Source of the DNA: Fimbriimonas ginsengisoli Gsoil 348
GTDB lineage: Bacteria > Armatimonadota > Fimbriimonadia > Fimbriimonadales > Fimbriimonadaceae
Assembly (NCBI RefSeq): GCF_000724625.1
Contig: NZ_CP007139.1
Location: 4,092,001-4,156,000 of the forward strand
Reading direction: 5' to 3'
Length of the DNA: 64,000 nucleotides
In this document: one piece after another, positions 6,884 through 51,780 of the stretch
How the letters are laid out: every line of letters begins with the position of its first letter
Position numbering within the stretch: the first letter of the stretch is position 1
The notes under the pieces: generated by a model
What the model was told of the DNA's origin: nothing
Seen by the model: only the letters and a program-made list of their open reading frames with translations
Databases searched by the model: none
Translations under genes and position numbers: made by a program

Positions 6884-7783
6884 ATGCTTGCCGCCCCTTC
6901 TGACGACCAGGTAAGGGCCATTTTGCGCAAGCATGGCCTTCCAGATGAAGTCGTGGTCGAACGCTCGGCGCACGAAGGTTCCGTCAATCACGTTCGGATG
7001 GCGGGTGACTACTGCGTCCGGCTGCTCAAGGAGCCGAACTATGCGAGCGACATTTGGACCGAGTCGGTCGCCGCCCCGGCGGTTAGGGCTTCGGGAGTAA
7101 AGACACCGGAACTGATCGCCTTCGATCCGGCCGCGGACCACTTTCCCGGCCTCGTTACTATTTATCGACGAGAGACGGGGGATGTTTTGGGCCAGTTCCG
7201 GGCTCCGGTCGATCTCGCCGGCATCTATCGGGAGCTCGGCGAGCAAATCGGGATCTGGCATCGAGGCGTGCGGCGCATCGAAGACCCGTTAGACCGTCTC
7301 GATAAGCCCGAGCTCGGAAGTATCCGGCAAGGGCTCGTAAGAAACTCCGTTCGGATGAGCCAGGCCGAAATCCAGTGGGCGGACAACCAGATCTCGCGAC
7401 TCGAGGCGGCCGGCCCCGGTCCGCGCGGCTTTGTCCACTGGGATCTGCACGCCCACAACGTCCTGATCTCGAGTGGACGCCTCTCGTCGATCCTCGATTG
7501 GGGGGATTCGGGCTGGGGAGACGCCGCTATCAACTTTCATTGCCTTCCGGCTCAGTATCTGCCGGAAGCGCTGGACGGGTTTGGCGACCCGACTCCCGAA
7601 CTGTTCGCCCGATGCCTGCTCGGCGTCCTCGGCTACGCAATGAACGATATCCACCGTCCCGACGACACGCTCCAGCCGTACCGGAACAGCGGCCACCGAC
7701 GGTGGAGAAGCCTTCAAGCGCTGTACCAGCGCGACCTGCCCCCGGAGTGGCGCCGATGGATGAGCCCCCAGCTTCAAACGTAG
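6884..7783 (+). CDS. Aminoglycoside phosphotransferase-fold kinase
   Basis: 299 residues with the APH/choline-kinase fold. The catalytic loop is FVHWDLHAHNVL (Brenner-type H-x-D-x4-N, about residues 185-196), followed by the metal-binding LDWGDSGWGD. The N-terminal lobe has EGSVNHVRMAGDYCVRLLKE. Such enzymes phosphorylate small hydroxylated molecules, and the natural substrate here cannot be told; it should not be taken as antibiotic resistance. It starts 30 bp after purL and may be cotranscribed. Its stop codon (TAG 7781-7783) lies inside the left arm of a perfect 24-bp inverted repeat, so the last codons and the stop may have been supplied by the repeat. Confidence 0.8.
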   Translation: MLAAPSDDQVRAILRKHGLPDEVVVERSAHEGSVNHVRMAGDYCVRLLKEPNYASDIWTESVAAPAVRASGVKTPELIAFDPAADHFPGLVTIYRRETGDVLGQFRAPVDLAGIYRELGEQIGIWHRGVRRIEDPLDRLDKPELGSIRQGLVRNSVRMSQAEIQWADNQISRLEAAGPGPRGFVHWDLHAHNVLISSGRLSSILDWGDSGWGDAAINFHCLPAQYLPEALDGFGDPTPELFARCLLGVLGYAMNDIHRPDDTLQPYRNSGHRRWRSLQALYQRDLPPEWRRWMSPQLQT

Positions 7784-7840
7784 CATCGGCTCCCAGCCGA
7801 TGAACGGTTCGAGGGATCATCGGCTGGGAGCCGATGCTAC
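7780..7840. repeat. Perfect 24-bp inverted repeat (REP-like, GTAGCATCGGCTCCC type)
   Basis: Left arm 7780-7803 and right arm 7817-7840 are exact reverse complements, with a 13-base loop. Each arm also contains its own small palindrome (ATCGGCTCCCAGCCGAT). The same arm recurs once at 11552-11576. It follows the phosphotransferase directly and contains its stop codon. A strong stem-loop here could end transcription or protect the 3' end, although no T-run follows. Confidence 0.85.
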
Positions 7841-9698: not shown

Positions 9699-10523
9699 AT
9701 GGCCTCGACAAACCAACCACCGGTGCCGACAACGCCCAACGCCCAACGCCCAACGCCCAACACCCCAACACCCCAACACCTCAACACCTCAACACCTCTT
9801 CGAGAGGAAGCATTGCAACTCGGCATCTCCCTAACCTCCCTCCCCCATCACGTCGCCGTGATCATGGATGGGAATGGGCGGTGGGCGAAGAAGAAGGGGT
9901 TGGGCCGGTTGCTTGGGCACCGTGAGGGGTACAAGACGCTTCGGGGGGTGTTGCTGGCGGCGAGCGAGCTTGGGATTCGCTACTTAACCGTCTACGCCTT
10001 CTCCGCGGAGAACTGGCGGCGGCCCGCGGAGGAAGTGGCGGGGCTGATGAAGCTCATCGAGACCGCGGCCCGCGACGAGCTGCGCCTCATGCATAAGAAT
10101 AATGTCCGTGTCCAAGTCGCCGGGCGGATGGACGAAGTCCCCGAGGGGCTTCGCCGGGCGCTCGAGCACGGAATCGAGACGACGAAAGATAACACCGGGA
10201 TCACCTTCACGCTCGCCGTCAACTACGGCGGACGAGCGGAGATCGTCGACGCCGTAAAGTCGATCGTCGCGTCCGGGGTTCCGGTCGAGCAGATCACCGA
10301 AGAGTCGATTTCGGCCCACCTCTACAATCCAGCTCAGCCCGACCCGGACCTCATGATCCGCACGGCGGGAGAGATGCGATGGAGCAACTTCCTCATCTGG
10401 CAGTCCGCCTACTGCGAGCTCGTCGTCACCGACGTCACCTGGCCCGAATTCGGCCCCAACGACCTTCTCCAAGCCGTCGCCGTCTACCAGCGCCGAACCC
10501 GAAAATTCGGCGCCACGGTTTAG
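9699..10523 (+). CDS. uppS: Isoprenyl transferase (undecaprenyl diphosphate synthase)
   Basis: 274 residues from ATG 9699. The core is typical cis-prenyltransferase: HHVAVIMDGNGRWAKKKG with the catalytic Asp, LGHREGYKTLR, YAFSAENWRRP, and RTAGEMRWSNFLIWQSAYCE. It makes the C55 lipid carrier for cell-wall sugars. The first about 35 residues are Pro/Thr/Asn-rich and are encoded by the repeat at 9729-9795. TTG 9813 with a GAGAGG ribosome site (9802-9807, 5 nt spacing) gives a 236-residue protein of normal family length and is a strong alternative start. The stop overlaps the convergent prepilin stop by 4 bp. Confidence 0.93.
   Translation: MASTNQPPVPTTPNAQRPTPNTPTPQHLNTSTPLREEALQLGISLTSLPHHVAVIMDGNGRWAKKKGLGRLLGHREGYKTLRGVLLAASELGIRYLTVYAFSAENWRRPAEEVAGLMKLIETAARDELRLMHKNNVRVQVAGRMDEVPEGLRRALEHGIETTKDNTGITFTLAVNYGGRAEIVDAVKSIVASGVPVEQITEESISAHLYNPAQPDPDLMIRTAGEMRWSNFLIWQSAYCELVVTDVTWPEFGPNDLLQAVAVYQRRTRKFGATV
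9729..9795. repeat. Tandem CCAACGC / CCAACAC heptamers, right copy
   Basis: About four CCAACGC units followed by about five CCAACAC/TCAACAC units, in the 5' part of the annotated uppS frame. Reverse complement of the repeat at 9206-9237. Related heptamers form the array at 54446-54557. Confidence 0.75.
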
Positions 10524-11308
10524 TCACACAAGCTGTACCAGGTGCCCGACCATGCGTTTGGGTCCGTCGCCGGCTCGCCCGACTTATGCCCCGCCGGGTC
10601 GACTCTCGACTCGTCGAACGAGCCCATCCCATTGATGTGCTTCGCGTGGCTATCCGAGAAGATCATGGAGCCGCCGCTCGGGTCCCAGTTCTTGAAGTAC
10701 CCGCAGTCGTAGCCATAGCGCGTGCACTCGGGATCGTTCTTCTTCTCGAAGAATCCGAACATCTCCAGCCGGATCACCCGGGTCTCGGCCGGAAACTCCA
10801 TCGAGGTTTCGATCACCGGTCGAGTCACGTTGGTTGACTGCGAGACGGCATCGTAGACCGCGAACTGATTGTTCTGCGACGATTCATTGGCTGCCGTCGT
10901 GAACGTGCAGTGCCCGAAGCGATAAGAGCTGCCGTACGCCTTCCAGTAGGAGTCCGCATTCTTGGCACTGCCGACCTCGTTGGCAAGATACGGTCCGCCG
11001 CTGTCGAGGGGCGAGCGGAAGATCTCCTTCGAGTTCGTGTAGGGAAGCAGCAGCACCTCGGTACCGTGGTGCGCGGCGGGGGAATAGATGGAAGGGTCGC
11101 TGTTGTATGCGTAGAAGATCGGCATCGTGTCGTCGCTATCGCCGAGATAGATCTTGATGGCGGTGCCGATCTCCTTGGCGTTGCTCAGGTCGACCGTCTT
11201 CTTCGCGGCAAACTTCGCCTGGGCGAAGACCGGGAATAGAATGGCGGCCAAGATGGCGATGATCGCGATGACGACGAGTAGCTCGATGAGCGTAAATGCG
11301 CGTTTCAC
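10520..11308 (-). CDS. Prepilin-type N-terminal domain protein (secreted pseudopilin-like)
   Basis: 262 residues from GTG 11308, chosen because GAGGAG (11314-11319) lies 5 nt upstream and because it gives the class III prepilin leader [20 protein letters not shown], cut by PilD before Phe. After the hydrophobic helix comes [19 protein letters not shown], close to the N-terminus of the gene at 53409. The C-terminal half has MIFSDSHAKHING, resembling the H-x9-DG motif region of the large pseudopilin families of Planctomycetes and Armatimonadota. The frame extends to 11392 but that part is leader RNA. A TPP riboswitch stands just upstream on the same strand. The protein has no visible thiamine function. 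Confidence 0.85.
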   Translation of the reverse strand: MKRAFTLIELLVVIAIIAILAAILFPVFAQAKFAAKKTVDLSNAKEIGTAIKIYLGDSDDTMPIFYAYNSDPSIYSPAAHHGTEVLLLPYTNSKEIFRSPLDSGGPYLANEVGSAKNADSYWKAYGSSYRFGHCTFTTAANESSQNNQFAVYDAVSQSTNVTRPVIETSMEFPAETRVIRLEMFGFFEKKNDPECTRYGYDCGYFKNWDPSGGSMIFSDSHAKHINGMGSFDESRVDPAGHKSGEPATDPNAWSGTWYSLCD

Positions 11309-11313
11309 TTGTT

Positions 11314-11353
11314 CTCCTCGAAGCAGGAGCACGCCTTCGCGACTGCGAAGGCG
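11314..11353 (-). promoter_or_regulatory. Candidate expression platform of the TPP riboswitch
   Basis: Reading the minus strand, CGCCTTCGC (11353-11345) and GCGAAGGCG (11340-11332) form a perfect 9-bp stem with an AGTC loop. Further on, CTCCT (11329-11325) can pair with AGGAG (11318-11314), hiding the ribosome site of the prepilin gene. GAAGGCG at 11387-11381, right after the aptamer, can compete for the CGCCTTC strand. This is what a translation-controlling platform would look like. No T-run follows the stem. Pairing is by eye, not by folding software. Confidence 0.5.
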
Positions 11354-11382
11354 GCCTTGCGGGGTGAACCGTGGGGACCGCG

Positions 11383-11476
11383 CCTTCCACAATCCCTCCG
11401 CTGGTACTAACCAGATCAGGTTCCGGGGTCGTCCTGTCTCCAGGACCTCTCAGCCTCTCGGCTCCCCCTTGCGGGC
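11383..11476 (-). ncRNA. TPP riboswitch (THI element)
   Basis: On the minus strand the conserved aptamer parts appear in order: GGGGGAGCC, a GAGA-capped small stem ending GGCTGAGA, a variable P3 stem (GTCCTG-GAGA-CAGGAC), ACCC, then the diagnostic CCTGATCTGGTTAGTACCAG (11420-11401) followed by CGGAGGGA. This matches the thiamine-pyrophosphate aptamer closely. Such elements normally precede thiamine synthesis or transport genes. Here the next gene on the strand, 75-80 nt away, is a prepilin-like gene, and no thi gene is in the window. Confidence 0.93.
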
Positions 11477-11504: not shown

Positions 11505-11645
11505 GTGGCACGGGCTTCCAGCCCGTGTGTATCACGACCATCCTGGTCGTGAACGTAGCATCGGCTCCCAGCCGATGAACCCTGCGACCATCTGTGGCCA
11601 AGGGCAGGATGCCCTTGGGACCCACTGGCAAGATGCCAGTGCCAC
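11505..11645. repeat. REP-like palindrome cluster (GTGGCACGGGCTTCC type)
   Basis: A chain of small perfect palindromes: CACGGGCTTCCAGCCCGTG, CACGACCATCCTGGTCGTG, CATCGGCTCCCAGCCGATG, AAGGGCAGGATGCCCTT and CACTGGCAAGATGCCAGTG. The same chain recurs at 46809-46912 and 51594-51694 with small differences. It fills most of the gap between the TPP riboswitch and the DNA ligase 3' end. Nothing else is seen in this 354-bp gap. Confidence 0.85.
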
Positions 11646-11663: not shown

Positions 11664-13355
11664 TCAGATCGCTTTCAACATCTCCCGGACGCTTGCCAGC
11701 GAGTCGGCGTCCGGTGGTTTTTTGTCGTGGCGCCAGCGGAGGATGCGGGGGAAGCGGACGGCGAGGCCCGACTTATGGCGGTTAGAAACTTGAATCCCCT
11801 CGAACGCCAGCTCCATCACGAGCTCGGGCTCCACGGTCCGGACCGGGCCAAATTTTTCTTTCGTGTTGCGGCGAACCCAGCTATCGACGCGTCGGATCTC
11901 CTCGTCGGTAAGGCCGCTGTACGCCTTGGCAAACGGGACGAGCTTTCCATCGTCGTCCCACACGCCGAAGGTGTAGTCGGTGTACAGCGAGGCCCGCTTG
12001 CCACTCCCTCGTTGGGCGTAGATGAGCACGGCGTCGACCGTAAGCGGCTCGATCTTCCACTTCCACCAATTCCCCTTCTTTCTTCCGACCAAGTAAGGAG
12101 AATCGAGCCGCTTAAGCATCAGTCCCTCGACGTTTAGGTTACGCGACTCCTCCCGCTTAAGGGCGAGTTCATTCCAAGTTGAGGCCTCCACTCGGCTGGA
12201 GATCAACAGGCGCGAAGTGCTCGCCAACCCGTCCGTCGCCGAATCATCCGGGTCGTCGGAGGCGAGGCGGGGATCGACGGCTTCTCCCAAGATCAACTGG
12301 TCCGGCGGAGCGGTATTGACCGCATCGACCAGCTCCTCCAAGAGGCGCCTTCGCTCGACGTAAGGCCGTTCTCGGAGATCCTCGCCCGCATACTCGAGGA
12401 TATCGAAGGCGACGATCACCGCCGGGACCTCTTGCAAGATCTTCTTCGAGAGGAGCTTTCGTCCGATCCGGCGTTGCAAGGCCATAAACTTCTGCGGTTT
12501 CCCTTCCGCCCAGGCAAGAATCTCGCCGTCGATCACGGTTCCATTCGGGAGCGCCTCGCACACGTCGACCATCTCCGGGAAGCGCTCGGTGATCAGCTCC
12601 TCGCCGCGCGACCAAACAAACGACTGGCCCTCCCGGCGAATGAGCTGGGCACGTATCCCATCCCACTTCCATTCGGCATGCCACTCTTCGATCGGGCCGA
12701 GCCCTTCCAAGGCTTGTTCAAGCGAATGCGCGAGGCAGAACGGGTACGGGCGGCTGACGTCGGTGTCGTCCGATTGCTCCGAAAGGAGCCCTTCGTAGAA
12801 AAGCGCGGACGGCGTCCAGTCGCCCATTAACCGGTGGGCAATGACGGGCGCCGGTATTCCGCTGACTTGCGCGATCGCCCGCACCACCAGCTCTTGAGAA
12901 ACCCCGACCCGGAACGCGCCCGTGATCAGCTTGTTATAGACAAACCGTTCCGAAGGGTCGAGCTCGATCCAGTCTTCCGCGAGCGCCCGAACCTGGTCGT
13001 CCTCCGACAGTCCCGGCATCTTGAGCAGTCGCTCCTCCACCCAATAGGTCAGAGGCTTGTCGGCCTTTTCTCCGGGGAATTGCGGCAGGATGAGAGCGAT
13101 CGTCTCCGCCAGATCGCCGACGGCATCGTACGATTCCCCGAAAAGCCAAGGCGGAATTCCCGCCAGATGGGCGGCCAACTCCTGCATCCGGGTGGAATTC
13201 GCCGCCCGTTTCGGCCGGCGGCCGATCAGGAAGTGAACGGTCCACGCGGCGTCGTCGGGAGGCGCTTCCCGGAAGTAACGCGCCATGGCGGCGACTTTTT
13301 CATTGGTCTTGTTCGTCTCGTCGATCGACCGGTAGAGATTTGCGAATGCTTTCAT
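11664..13355 (-). CDS. ATP-dependent DNA ligase (bacterial LigB/Lig-B type)
   Basis: 563 residues from ATG 13355, the start that overlaps the GNAT stop as ATGA. Domains: an N-terminal DNA-binding part (FLIGRRPKRAANSTRMQELA), then the nucleotidyltransferase with adenylated Lys in EWKWDGIRAQ (about residue 229), TVIDGEILAW, EGLMLKRLDSPY and WWKWKIEPLTVDAVL, then an OB-fold ending MELAFEGIQVS. It seals nicks using ATP. Bacterial ligases of this kind usually sit in a repair operon with an MBL exonuclease, an Lhr-type helicase and a phosphoesterase. Here the exonuclease is present, the helicase and phosphoesterase are not, and a GNAT gene lies between. Confidence 0.93.
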   Translation of the reverse strand: MKAFANLYRSIDETNKTNEKVAAMARYFREAPPDDAAWTVHFLIGRRPKRAANSTRMQELAAHLAGIPPWLFGESYDAVGDLAETIALILPQFPGEKADKPLTYWVEERLLKMPGLSEDDQVRALAEDWIELDPSERFVYNKLITGAFRVGVSQELVVRAIAQVSGIPAPVIAHRLMGDWTPSALFYEGLLSEQSDDTDVSRPYPFCLAHSLEQALEGLGPIEEWHAEWKWDGIRAQLIRREGQSFVWSRGEELITERFPEMVDVCEALPNGTVIDGEILAWAEGKPQKFMALQRRIGRKLLSKKILQEVPAVIVAFDILEYAGEDLRERPYVERRRLLEELVDAVNTAPPDQLILGEAVDPRLASDDPDDSATDGLASTSRLLISSRVEASTWNELALKREESRNLNVEGLMLKRLDSPYLVGRKKGNWWKWKIEPLTVDAVLIYAQRGSGKRASLYTDYTFGVWDDDGKLVPFAKAYSGLTDEEIRRVDSWVRRNTKEKFGPVRTVEPELVMELAFEGIQVSNRHKSGLAVRFPRILRWRHDKKPPDADSLASVREMLKAI

Positions 13356-14002
13356 GCCCCTAGCGCCTCCCGTACAAACGGGTGATCCGGTTTGAGTTCC
13401 CAAACCGATTGGTAGAAACGCACGACCATCTCTGACCGATCAGGAATGTGGCCATGGGCGAATAGCGCGAACCGGACGGGGCCGGTCTCCGGTCGTACCG
13501 CGGGCTGCGTGTACGTTTCGCTAACAACGTGAAAGCCCTGCCGCTCGTACCACTCAAGTACCGGGCCTTCCCGGTCGATCTCTACCAGCAGCGGCAGAGG
13601 GGACGCATCTTGGAGCACCCGTTGGAGTAGCGCGGTCCCGATGCCTTGTCCCCGCCAGGGTTCATCGACGGCGATGTGGATAAGGAAGGCGAACTCGGCG
13701 GAATAGAGGACGGCGAAGCGGGCAAAGGCTGCCGGGGACCTCTCCGCAGAGGCACGATCTTCGGCAGGTTTTGCTCCCTCACCCCCAACCCCCTCTCCCT
13801 CGTCGGGCACGATGCATCCCGAGGAGGGAGAGGGGGCTCCGGAGGTGATGAGGAATTTGAAAGGAAGGCGATATTCGCCGCGCAGCTCTTGGATGAGGCG
13901 CTCGTCTGGCTCGCGGGACTCGGGCGGGAAGGAGGCGTGGTAGATACGGAATACGTCGGCCAGCGCGGGATCGTCTGGGCCGGTTAGGTAGCGGAAGTTC
14001 AT
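13352..14002 (-). CDS. GNAT family N-acetyltransferase in the ligase operon
   Basis: 216 residues from ATG 14002 (MNFRYLTGPDDPALADVFRI). The acetyl-CoA loop is EPWRGQGIGTALLQRVL (Q/R-x-x-G-x-G/A), followed by the fold-typical VEIDREGPVLEWYERQGFHV. It should transfer an acetyl group to an unknown amine. Both ends overlap neighbours by 4 bp (ATGA with the exonuclease upstream and with the ligase downstream), so translation is coupled. Residues about 54-75 (GAPSPSSGCIVPDEGEGVGG and on) are encoded by a palindromic repeat (13777-13838) found elsewhere between genes; the frame stays open through it. The insert falls between two strands of the fold, where a loop could tolerate it. Confidence 0.85.
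   Translation of the reverse strand: MNFRYLTGPDDPALADVFRIYHASFPPESREPDERLIQELRGEYRLPFKFLITSGAPSPSSGCIVPDEGEGVGGEGAKPAEDRASAERSPAAFARFAVLYSAEFAFLIHIAVDEPWRGQGIGTALLQRVLQDASPLPLLVEIDREGPVLEWYERQGFHVVSETYTQPAVRPETGPVRFALFAHGHIPDRSEMVVRFYQSVWELKPDHPFVREALGA
13777..13838. repeat. Palindromic CCCCCTCTCCCTCGTCGGG repeat inside a coding region
   Basis: CCCCCTCTCCCTCgtCGGG and CCCGagGAGGGAGAGGGGG form a long stem with a short loop. Copies or variants occur at 26158-26216, 26266-26325, 50229-50295 and 51705-51775. This copy lies within the GNAT gene and adds about 20 residues. Confidence 0.8.
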
Positions 14003-15084
14003 TCCAGCTTTCCCTCCGTATTCGGAGTGTAGGGGCGCTCTCCTTCGGTTTGCTCCACCGCTTCGGCGGCCTCCGCACCTTCGTCTTGCTCTCCCTCCCA
14101 CCGCGTGCTGAGGGCGTGGGCGTCGAGGCCCTGCTCCTCTAAGTAGCGAACGACGACGCTGGAGTAGCCGTGCGTAACCCAGACCGACTCGGCGCCGGTC
14201 TGTGCTATCGCTCCAATAAGCGAGGGCCAGTCGACGTGATCGCTGACGACGAAGCCCCGATCGACGGCGCGCCGCCGGCGAGCTCCGCGAATCGCCATCC
14301 AGCCGGACATGAAGCCAGTTGAGTGATCGCCAAACCGGCGCACCCAGGGACTGCCGTTGGCGCTTGGCGGTGCCAGCACGATCGCCTGCGACCAGTCGAA
14401 TCCCTTTCCAACCTCCGGTACCAAATGCGTCGGAGGCAAAGCGATCCCCTCCTCGCGATAGTCGTTCGTTAAACCTTGGACCGCTCCGTGAAGAAAGATC
14501 GGGCCGATCTCCGGATTCAAGTACGCCAAGGCTCGTTGGCACTTGCCAAGCGCGTATCCCAGCAGGATCGAGCACTTCCCGGCGGCTTGATTGCCCTTCC
14601 ACCACCCGTGGATCTGCTCGATGACTTCGGCCTGGGCCGGCCAACGATAGATTGGCAACCCGAAAGTCGATTCCGTAATGAACGTGTGGCAAGGTACTGG
14701 CTCAAACGGCGTGCAAGTGGAATCCATTTCCGTCTTGTAGTCGCCGGAAACCACGTAAACCCTCCCGCCATGTTCGACGCGCACTTGAGCTGAGCCGAGA
14801 ATGTGCCCGGCCGGATGGAGACTGACGCGAACCCCGTTTAGAGTCACCGGTTCGCCGTATGCTAGCGTGTCGATTGCAGCATCCTCGCCCACTCGGCGGC
14901 GCAGGACTCGTTCCCCCTCTTTCGTGCAGAGGTACCGCTTCATTCCCCACCGCGCATGATCGGAGTGCGCGTGGGTCACAACCGCTCGGTCAACCGGCTT
15001 CCATGGGTCGACGTAAAAATCCCCTTCATGACAGTAAAGGCCACGGTCGGTGAGGCAGAGCAACTCTTTTCGACGTCGGGCCAT
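13999..15084 (-). CDS. Ligase-associated DNA exonuclease (metallo-beta-lactamase fold)
   Basis: 361 residues. The metal site is THAHSDHARWG (H-x-H-x-D-H, about residues 37-43), with VSGDYKTEMD and a C-terminal VSDHVDWPSL carrying further ligands. It matches the 'ligase-associated exonuclease' family (mRNA 3'-end processing factor-like, relatives of SNM1/Artemis), which trims DNA ends beside the ATP-dependent ligase. The C-terminus has an acidic tail (EGEQDEGAEAAEAVEQTEGE) beyond the usual fold. It is the first gene of the coupled trio exonuclease-GNAT-ligase. The start ATG 15084 gives the family start LLCLTDRGLYC within ten residues. Confidence 0.9.
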   Translation of the reverse strand: MARRRKELLCLTDRGLYCHEGDFYVDPWKPVDRAVVTHAHSDHARWGMKRYLCTKEGERVLRRRVGEDAAIDTLAYGEPVTLNGVRVSLHPAGHILGSAQVRVEHGGRVYVVSGDYKTEMDSTCTPFEPVPCHTFITESTFGLPIYRWPAQAEVIEQIHGWWKGNQAAGKCSILLGYALGKCQRALAYLNPEIGPIFLHGAVQGLTNDYREEGIALPPTHLVPEVGKGFDWSQAIVLAPPSANGSPWVRRFGDHSTGFMSGWMAIRGARRRRAVDRGFVVSDHVDWPSLIGAIAQTGAESVWVTHGYSSVVVRYLEEQGLDAHALSTRWEGEQDEGAEAAEAVEQTEGERPYTPNTEGKLE

Positions 15085-46808: not shown

Positions 46809-46912
46809 GTGGCACGGGCTTCCAGCCCGTGTGTATCACGACCATCCTGGTCGTGTGAATTCGGCCAGGGGCTGGAAGCCCCTGGGACCCACTGGCTAGA
46901 AGCCAGTGCCAC
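46809..46912. repeat. REP-like palindrome cluster after the arabinofuranosidase
   Basis: Same chain of palindromes as 11505-11645: CACGGGCTTCCAGCCCGTG, CACGACCATCCTGGTCGTG, CAGGGGCTGGAAGCCCCTG and CACTGGCTAGAAGCCAGTG. It ends 1-2 bp before the arabinofuranosidase stop codon (46914-46916). Nothing else is visible in the 231-bp gap between 46682 and 46914. Confidence 0.85.
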
Positions 46913-51573: not shown

Positions 51574-51780
51574 CTAATTTCTCCCGCCGCCACGTGGCAC
51601 GGGCTTCCAGCCCGTGTGTATCACGACCATCCTGGTCGTGAACCGGCCAAGGGCAGGATGCCCTTGGGGCCCACTGGCTAGAAGCCAGTGCCACTTCCGG
51701 ACCGGACTCCCTCACCCCCAACCCCCTCTCCCTCGTCGGGCACAAACATCCCGAGGAGGGAGAGGGGGCTCCGGAAGGTT
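51574..51780. repeat. Gap of stacked palindromes between GH43 and the binding protein
   Basis: 51594-51694 carries the GTGGCACGGGCTTCC chain (third copy); 51705-51775 carries the CCCTCACCCCC palindrome. Together they fill the gap. No promoter pair is evident, so the binding protein may be read through from GH43 or from within. Confidence 0.8.

Follow-up and report, generated by a model that had tools for sequence, protein, structure and literature searches.

A prepilin family behind TPP riboswitches in Armatimonadota, with a probable role in thiamine acquisition

The window analysed here, a 64,000-nucleotide stretch of the genome of Fimbriimonas ginsengisoli Gsoil 348 (contig NZ_CP007139.1, positions 4,092,001 to 4,156,000), carries on its minus strand a thiamine pyrophosphate (TPP) riboswitch followed by a gene for a prepilin-like protein. 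The same pair is found throughout much of the order Fimbriimonadales and beyond it in the phylum Armatimonadota. That the pilin gene is under TPP control is close to certain, and a role of its product in the salvage of thiamine (vitamin B1) is very probable; both conclusions are drawn from conservation and from operon partners. The proposal as a whole, that of a thiamine-acquisition prepilin governed by a TPP OFF-switch, is considered likely. We infer the direction of the switch, the binding of thiamine and the uptake route, and we lean towards a direct capture of thiamine by the pilin itself.

The initial annotation of the window had proposed a TPP aptamer on the minus strand and, behind it, a prepilin-type gene, and both are borne out. 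The aptamer is complete: the Rfam TPP model RF00059 matches positions 11478-11376 of the minus strand over its full length (1-105) with 58.3 bits (gathering score 54.3 bits; E 7.5e-9 over 64 kb). The CUGAGA and ACCUGAU core stretches and the RF00059 helices are present in the alignment, seven positions of which are non-standard pairs or changes. TPP is contacted by the conserved core of the aptamer. No other TPP match was found in the genome, a single contig of 5,231,762 bases (G000; genome, contig, locus and family handles of the type G, C, L and f are ours). The gene that follows (10520-11308, minus strand) starts with a GTG at 11308, 67 nucleotides downstream of the switch, and encodes a protein of 262 residues. 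This protein matches the Pfam N_methyl family (PF07963, 31 bits, cut-off 21.2) and the NCBIfam prepilin-type N-terminal domain (TIGR02532, 32 bits, cut-off 16.3), and possesses all the elements of a class III signal: a small residue at position -1, Phe at +1, Glu at +5 and a hydrophobic helix. The profile of the TPP-switch pilin family described below recognizes it with an E-value of 7.4e-120.

The order was sampled with 113 genomes, 98 of which hold a TPP match, 95 of these having a single switch. Among the 101 matches listed, 100 were examined (the 28.9-bit switch of G100 was left out), and the same orthologous prepilin follows 86 of them. With the start codon taken as the one nearest to the motif, the distance from the end of the Rfam match to the pilin start is 42-98 nucleotides in 84 cases, 128 in G011 and 274 in G035. 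These prepilins form one family, A1: in an alignment of 71 rows they display 46-81% identity to the window copy, and F5 and E9 are invariant in all rows. A profile search identifies the pilin in 85 genomes of the order, with a clear gap between the orthologs, which score 312 bits or more, and the other pilins of the order, which do not exceed 148 bits. The synteny check suggested by the initial annotation gives a uniform answer, as the switch lies directly upstream of the pilin in 85 of 85 genomes; in G082, the switch and the first 29 pilin residues stand at a contig end. The surroundings of the pair vary: pilin-overlapping frames aside, the largest clusters of neighbouring frames include 13-15 genomes, on either strand.

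A few switches of the order stand elsewhere. In G112, the only genome of family f5 searched, a TPP switch of 72.8 bits (L213, C33:2273-2380) precedes by 159 nucleotides a frame without a Pfam match that looks by eye like a membrane protein. Second TPP switches are located before unidentified frames in L047 (G009:C18:2989-3099) and L049 (G041:C9:417074-417176). A further one, L051 (G038:C29:51556-51665, 53.6 bits), lies ~3.5 kb upstream of a normal switch-pilin pair; its frame resembles by eye the soluble part of a pilin without the N-terminus and is possibly a decaying duplicate.

The initial annotation had also considered that a thiamine gene was lost and that the switch now reads into the prepilin, and had named as a refuting case relatives that keep the switch before a thi gene while the window copy is a broken remnant. 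A switch ahead of a thiamine gene does exist in the order: ThiC follows 10 of the 100 examined switches, all in family f3. However, no pilin ortholog was found by profile in f3, the pilin gene is conserved where it is present, and the same prepilin stands behind 86 of the 100 order switches and in 40 of 40 loci sampled outside the order. The conservation of both the pair and the pilin gene across the phylum refutes the remnant explanation, to which we assign practically no weight.

The thiamine gene content of the order points to salvage. A full ThiC or a clear ThiE is found in 0 of the 85 pilin genomes and in 18 of the 28 others (Fisher p 3.9e-14, not corrected for kinship); this count disregards the ThiC fragment of G020 and the weak hits to the ThiE family in 13 of the pilin genomes, and the association remains at p 6e-12 when the G020 fragment and the weak match of G007 are included. 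TPK is present in 79 of the 85 pilin genomes. Regarding carriers, 52 of the 85 possess a sodium/solute symporter (counted when like that of the operons found outside the order) and 32 a transporter of the PnuC/PnuT type; G009 possesses both, and G010 and G011, which are 74-75% complete, neither. In 44 of the 56 order genomes that have the symporter, its gene follows TPK immediately and in the same orientation. From genome to genome the carrier changes while the pilin is retained, an argument for placing the pilin at a step ahead of the carrier. The pilin was also considered as a membrane carrier in its own right; this was rejected, as its model consists of one long helix and a compact domain and as other carriers are present in 83 of the 85 genomes. 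The window genome conforms to the general picture: ThiC and ThiE give no match, the TPK gene occupies 5231198-5231470, close to the end of the contig, and a sodium/solute symporter is encoded at 514596-515867. In the excerpts of the Gsoil 348 genome paper, the thiamine synthesis enzymes are described as completely absent, with only TPK remaining (PMC4072686). To note, G066 (family f1) holds ThiC, ThiE and TPK, and neither a TPP switch nor a pilin was found in it, while G067 and G068 (1.5 Mb, 97% complete) give no match for the switch, the pilin, ThiC, ThiE, TPK or either carrier.

Outside the order, the operon partners of the pilin become visible. The family profile finds the pilin in 137 of 291 phylum genomes, 52 of them beyond the order; one of the 52, G211, reaches only paralogue level (E 2.4e-41) and is not counted as an ortholog. 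Forty loci from 38 of these 52 genomes were sampled, and a TPP switch is located upstream of the pilin in all 40: in 39 it is above the cut-off and 32-223 nucleotides before the pilin, and in L237 it scores 52.6 bits. In nine further genomes (G125, G129, G144, G147, G150, G154, G160, G165 and G181) the switch is directly upstream by coordinates; G140, G142, G153 and G218, for which the place of the switch is not listed, were left out. Genes behind the pilin were scored in 39 loci (L237 being left out): TPK is found in 21, the symporter in 15, of which 14 also have TPK, and YkoE in one (L255), so that at least one of the three stands behind the pilin in 23 of 39. Representatives of each are well above their cut-offs: TPKs with TIGR01378 (129 and 142.7 bits, cut-off 76.4), a symporter with PF00474 (88.6 bits, cut-off 22.8) and a YkoE with PF09819 (70.4 bits, cut-off 25.2). 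G217 has two pilin loci, each with its own switch, ordered pilin-TPK-symporter and pilin-YkoE, and within the order G111 (L212) aligns switch, pilin, YkoE and a second pilin in a row. Two family pilins behind one TPP switch are observed in L250, L258 and L212, YkoE lying between them in L212. The familiar position of TPP switches before thiamine genes, on which the initial annotation had drawn, is therefore recovered in these loci with the pilin in first place, and its suggestion that the thiamine level controls a secreted protein serving uptake or salvage is strongly supported by the TPK, symporter and YkoE operons together with the gene content of the order.

A second type of prepilin has been found behind TPP switches. 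Among the TPP matches listed for the phylum, 40 further switches were picked: 35 precede Thi4 (14), ThiC (15), ThiE (4) or ThiG (2), named by tblastn to Pfam-tested representatives, and five precede prepilins distinct from A1 (L281, L284, L288, L289 and L290). TPK is the next gene in L284 and L289, L281 and L290 are cut short by the end of the contig, and L288 gives no TPK match. In a tree of 127 pilins, obtained by a quick method, unrooted and with some long branches, all 81 A1-type pilins fall on one side of a single branch with no other pilin among them (SH-like approximate likelihood ratio test, SH-aLRT, 99), and each of the 81 lies behind a switch. Three rows, L237 and the second members of L250 and L258, were given the label of switch pilins on the ground of their position after a switch, and row L097 of the A1 clade is the own pilin of G005, truncated where its contig ends. 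The tree also includes two second-type pilins, which fall on the opposite side of the branch, and all five lack most of the clade-specific residues of A1 described below. Because they lie apart in this way, prepilins probably came under TPP control twice. Loci around other pilins served as a control: a TPP switch was found in 0 of 80 of them, and in 4 of 4 positive controls. The search patterns for the control loci fell on the common N-terminal helix and so returned mostly other pilins; these loci derive mostly from other phyla, with a few from Fimbriimonas or other Armatimonadota; some hold little DNA upstream of the pilin, and a match in L156 (16.1 bits, E 0.28) is at chance level.

The presence of thiamine genes behind the pilin in 23 of 39 outside loci could mean that the pilin is a bystander, cotranscribed with a TPK-carrier operon but playing no part in B1 supply. 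We consider this very improbable: genomes of the order carry the TPK-symporter pair at another place than the pilin, and it is with the pilin that the single TPP switch stayed in 85 genomes; TPP control was also gained by a second pilin type. In the window, the gene after the pilin, which encodes a UppS-type prenyltransferase (9699-10523, plus strand), is convergent with it, and the pilin is therefore the sole recognizable gene that the switch can control there.

Several observations have to be set against a salvage role for the pilin. No thiamine gene was found behind it in 16 of the 39 outside loci, some of which end at contig ends. Outside the order, G133, G134 and G157 possess a switch-pilin locus together with another TPP switch ahead of ThiC or ThiE/ThiG, so that thiamine auxotrophs are not the sole bearers of the pilin there, the ThiC/ThiE survey having covered the genomes of the order. 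Within the order, the ThiC fragment of the pilin genome G020 covers 59 of 420 positions and is over the cut-off, as is, with its neighbours, the ThiE-family match of G007, one of the 13 weak partial ones. TPK gives no match in six pilin genomes, three of which are 97-99% complete (G053, G054 and G061). Finally, four genomes of the order keep uptake genes without switch or pilin: TPK and symporter in G030 (98% complete), G006 (91%) and G057 (72%), and a PnuC/PnuT-type carrier in G039 (88%). The pilin is thus not strictly needed, or it was missed in these four.

The leader between aptamer and gene contains the elements of a translational switch. A post-aptamer segment (11361-11383, minus strand), identified from folds and from covariation across leaders, has two partners. 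In the ligand-free fold it pairs with the 3' strand of P1 and with the 5' part of the aptamer; in the fold of the RNA after P1 it pairs with the ribosome site and the start codon. The strands of P1 are located at 11469-11473 (5') and 11388-11392 (3') in the Rfam alignment, and the Shine-Dalgarno (SD) sequence AGGAG at 11314-11318, 5 nucleotides upstream of the GTG, all on the minus strand. The ligand-free minimum-energy fold breaks P1 by pairing 11396-11388 with 11382-11374, and it also pairs 11468-11459 with 11371-11366 and 11364-11361. In the fold of the RNA after P1, 11369-11366 pair with 11314-11311 and 11364-11363 with 11317-11316 at the ribosome site, and 11373-11371 with 11308-11306 at the GTG start. 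The two pairings are mutually exclusive, as a switch requires, and the competing stems of the initial annotation are thereby recovered. A 9-bp hairpin (11332-11353, minus strand) separates the two halves of the expression platform in all three folds. A 9-pair duplex of 11395-11387 with 11374-11366, tried as the competing stem of the window, was discarded since the minimum-energy fold pairs otherwise.

Across the leaders of the order, the ribosome-site pairing is well supported. In 84 leaders (those of G011 and G035, longer than 110 nucleotides, were excluded from the covariation, folding and shuffle tests), the covariation score between the post-aptamer segment and the ribosome site is 16.23, as compared to 13.31 (standard deviation 0.29) when partners are permuted among genomes, a score reached by 0 of 20,000 permutations. 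When each of the 35 genera contributes a single leader (50 draws), the median z is 6.74, compared with 1.00, 0.16 and 1.63 for three control pairings. The ribosome site is also less exposed than with shuffled upstream parts (0.316 vs 0.435; lower in 62 of 84 leaders, p 7e-7). Because this pairing covaries and the site is less exposed than in shuffles, translational control is supported. As for the hairpin that the initial annotation saw as able to hide the ribosome site, the site is covered above chance across the 84 leaders, and the local CTCCT/AGGAG pair (11329-11325 with 11318-11314), possible from the sequence, occurs in none of the folds.

Support for an alternation of the two stems is weaker. 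The pairing between the P1 3' strand and the platform reaches a median z of 2.07 with one leader per genus, a weak support. Two-state folding of the 84 leaders reveals no difference between states (mean probability of an unpaired SD 0.316 vs 0.334, p 0.15). In the window copy, this probability is 0.34 for the RNA after P1 and 0.22 for the entire leader without ligand, rather the reverse of what is expected, and in the ligand-free fold part of the ribosome site pairs with coding sequence. Since this pairing is weak and folding displays no difference in exposure, the alternation of the stems and the OFF-with-TPP direction would follow from the behaviour of TPP switches in general.

The model of the pilin (mean predicted local distance difference test score, pLDDT, 93.2) exhibits a long N-terminal helix followed by a compact soluble domain. 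Its best structural match is the type IV pilin PilA4 of Thermus (PDB ID 6xxd; Z 5.0, 123 residues at 3.8 Å, 25% identity), and the sequence likeness to solved pilins is limited to about the first 65 profile positions, which is to say the N-terminal helix. The soluble domain has a mean column identity of 52% over 40 rows. At 24 of its positions the same residue occurs in 93% or more of 119 switch-pilin rows, its share among 108 other pilins being 20% or less; the 119 rows hold one protein twice (G111, L212), and the 108 belong mostly to other phyla. These positions include I64, F65, Y68, H80, E84, Y121, Y125, F131, S143, R177, R180, E182, F187, Y198 and W208, and the aromatic and acidic side chains among them would be well matched to thiamine, a cationic and aromatic ligand. 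The homology and fold searches do not speak for a binder: the soluble domain alone (mean pLDDT 88.9) matches no PDB structure, and neither it nor the whole model matches a binding protein, one of the fold searches covering only 17 chains. No solute-binding family of the ThiB or ThiY type matches the pilin either; N_methyl is its only match in Pfam, and the NCBIfam matches are all pilin-type models. The pilin may still work like a solute-binding protein.

With respect to this protein, two further explanations that keep its link to B1 have to be weighed. Cells starved of B1 could use the pilin in an attachment pilus to settle or stay near algae, plants or bacteria that release the vitamin, without any contact between pilin and thiamine. 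The protein is of the pilin type, the operon and gene-content data fit any role in B1 supply, and the excerpts of the Gsoil 348 paper report PilB, C, D, Q and M together with PilT, as well as fimbriae and no motility, and suggest attachment (PMC4072686). We nevertheless regard it as unlikely, as a rather constant soluble domain with shared clade-specific aromatic and charged residues is not expected of an adhesin, and as location in one operon with TPK and carriers is more simply explained by uptake. Less likely again is a secretion pseudopilin that would help, under B1 starvation, to export an enzyme or a binder freeing thiamine outside the cell. The N-terminus of the pilin does resemble GspG-type pseudopilins, below the cut-off, and type II secretion genes, along with a count of 79 PulG-type genes, are listed in the same excerpts (PMC4072686); however, no constant neighbour gene accompanies the pilin in the order, and outside it the recognized neighbours are TPK and carriers.

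The thiamine-acquisition proposal can be laid out as follows. At high TPP, the aptamer would hold P1, and the segment behind it would cover the ribosome site and the start codon of the pilin gene. At low TPP, the opened aptamer strands would take up this segment, freeing the ribosome site, and the pilin-like protein would be made. Inserted via its prepilin N-terminus, it would act outside the inner membrane and help thiamine, or a phosphorylated or precursor form, to reach the inner-membrane carrier, be it the symporter, the PnuC/PnuT type or YkoE; TPK would then make TPP. The pilin itself would most likely be the part that captures thiamine outside the cytoplasm, whether from a tether in the periplasm or from a pilus or pseudopilus that displays it. 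A bolder generalization, offered as tentative, is that filaments of the type IV pilin type are vitamin uptake organelles: they would display a thiamine-binding pilin, and assembly and retraction, or periplasmic tethering, would deliver thiamine across the double-membrane envelope to interchangeable carriers, DUF1559-like prepilins being pilin-anchored small-molecule binders.

Riboswitches tell the purpose of genes, and here, across a phylum and apparently twice independently, they would assign prepilins to vitamin B1 supply, a role given to prepilins in no paper found in the open-licence literature. One of many anonymous prepilins would thereby become a testable thiamine-acquisition protein, and an outer step of B1 uptake in double-membrane bacteria would be added beside the TonB-dependent one. 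If the generalization holds, the DUF1559-like prepilins of Planctomycetota, Verrucomicrobiota and Armatimonadota would be small-molecule binders, the switch pilin being the first with a likely ligand; it would be a first functional hint for these large families.

The remaining features of the locus lie upstream of the switch. The gene on that side encodes an ATP-dependent DNA ligase ending at 11664; in the minus-strand region 11664-15084 this ligase, of the cisplatin-response type, is found near a GNAT-domain frame and a ligase-associated exonuclease. Short dispersed repeats, GGCTGGAAGCCCGTGCCAC and variants, are located at 11505-11645, 7780-7840, 46809-46912 and 51594-51694 (10 matches at no more than 3 mismatches vs 0.06 expected), the first cluster sitting between the ligase gene and the switch. 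A promoter scan found nothing.

No paper linking a TPP switch or thiamine uptake to a prepilin was found in the open-licence literature, and PMC12524902 has no mention of thiamin, vitamin, pili or auxotroph. Among known systems, Thermus PilA4 is the closest in structure, a resemblance that disappears when the soluble domain is taken alone. The prepilin-type proteins of DUF1559 / SBP_bac_10 (PF07596), to which Pfam assigns no function, are another close system: 28 of the 71 order family members and both second-type pilins tested match PF07596, whereas the window copy does not at E 0.01 and is not placed in that family. In the archaeon Sulfolobus, proteins that bind sugars at the cell surface and carry class III (pilin-type) signal peptides form a bindosome that aids sugar uptake (PMC4471445); unlike the switch pilin, this system is archaeal and serves sugars, and the excerpts of its description mention no riboswitch. 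In SAR11, a putative TPP switch precedes the sodium/solute symporter ThiV, according to the excerpted text (PMC11452348). The likeness resides in a standard TPP aptamer before a salvage gene; the difference is that the first controlled gene is here a prepilin, in the window the only one, and that those order genomes whose one switch stands at the pilin lack a switch at the symporter. A parallel to the proposed role is OMthi of Bacteroides, described in the excerpts of PMC5613172 as a TonB-dependent outer-membrane thiamine transporter whose gene has a TPP switch and which is separate from the inner-membrane carrier PnuT and from tnr3, the genes forming one or split operons. OMthi is backed by genetic evidence, whereas the role of the pilin is predicted from sequence, but the operon logic is the same, with the pilin in place of the outer protein.

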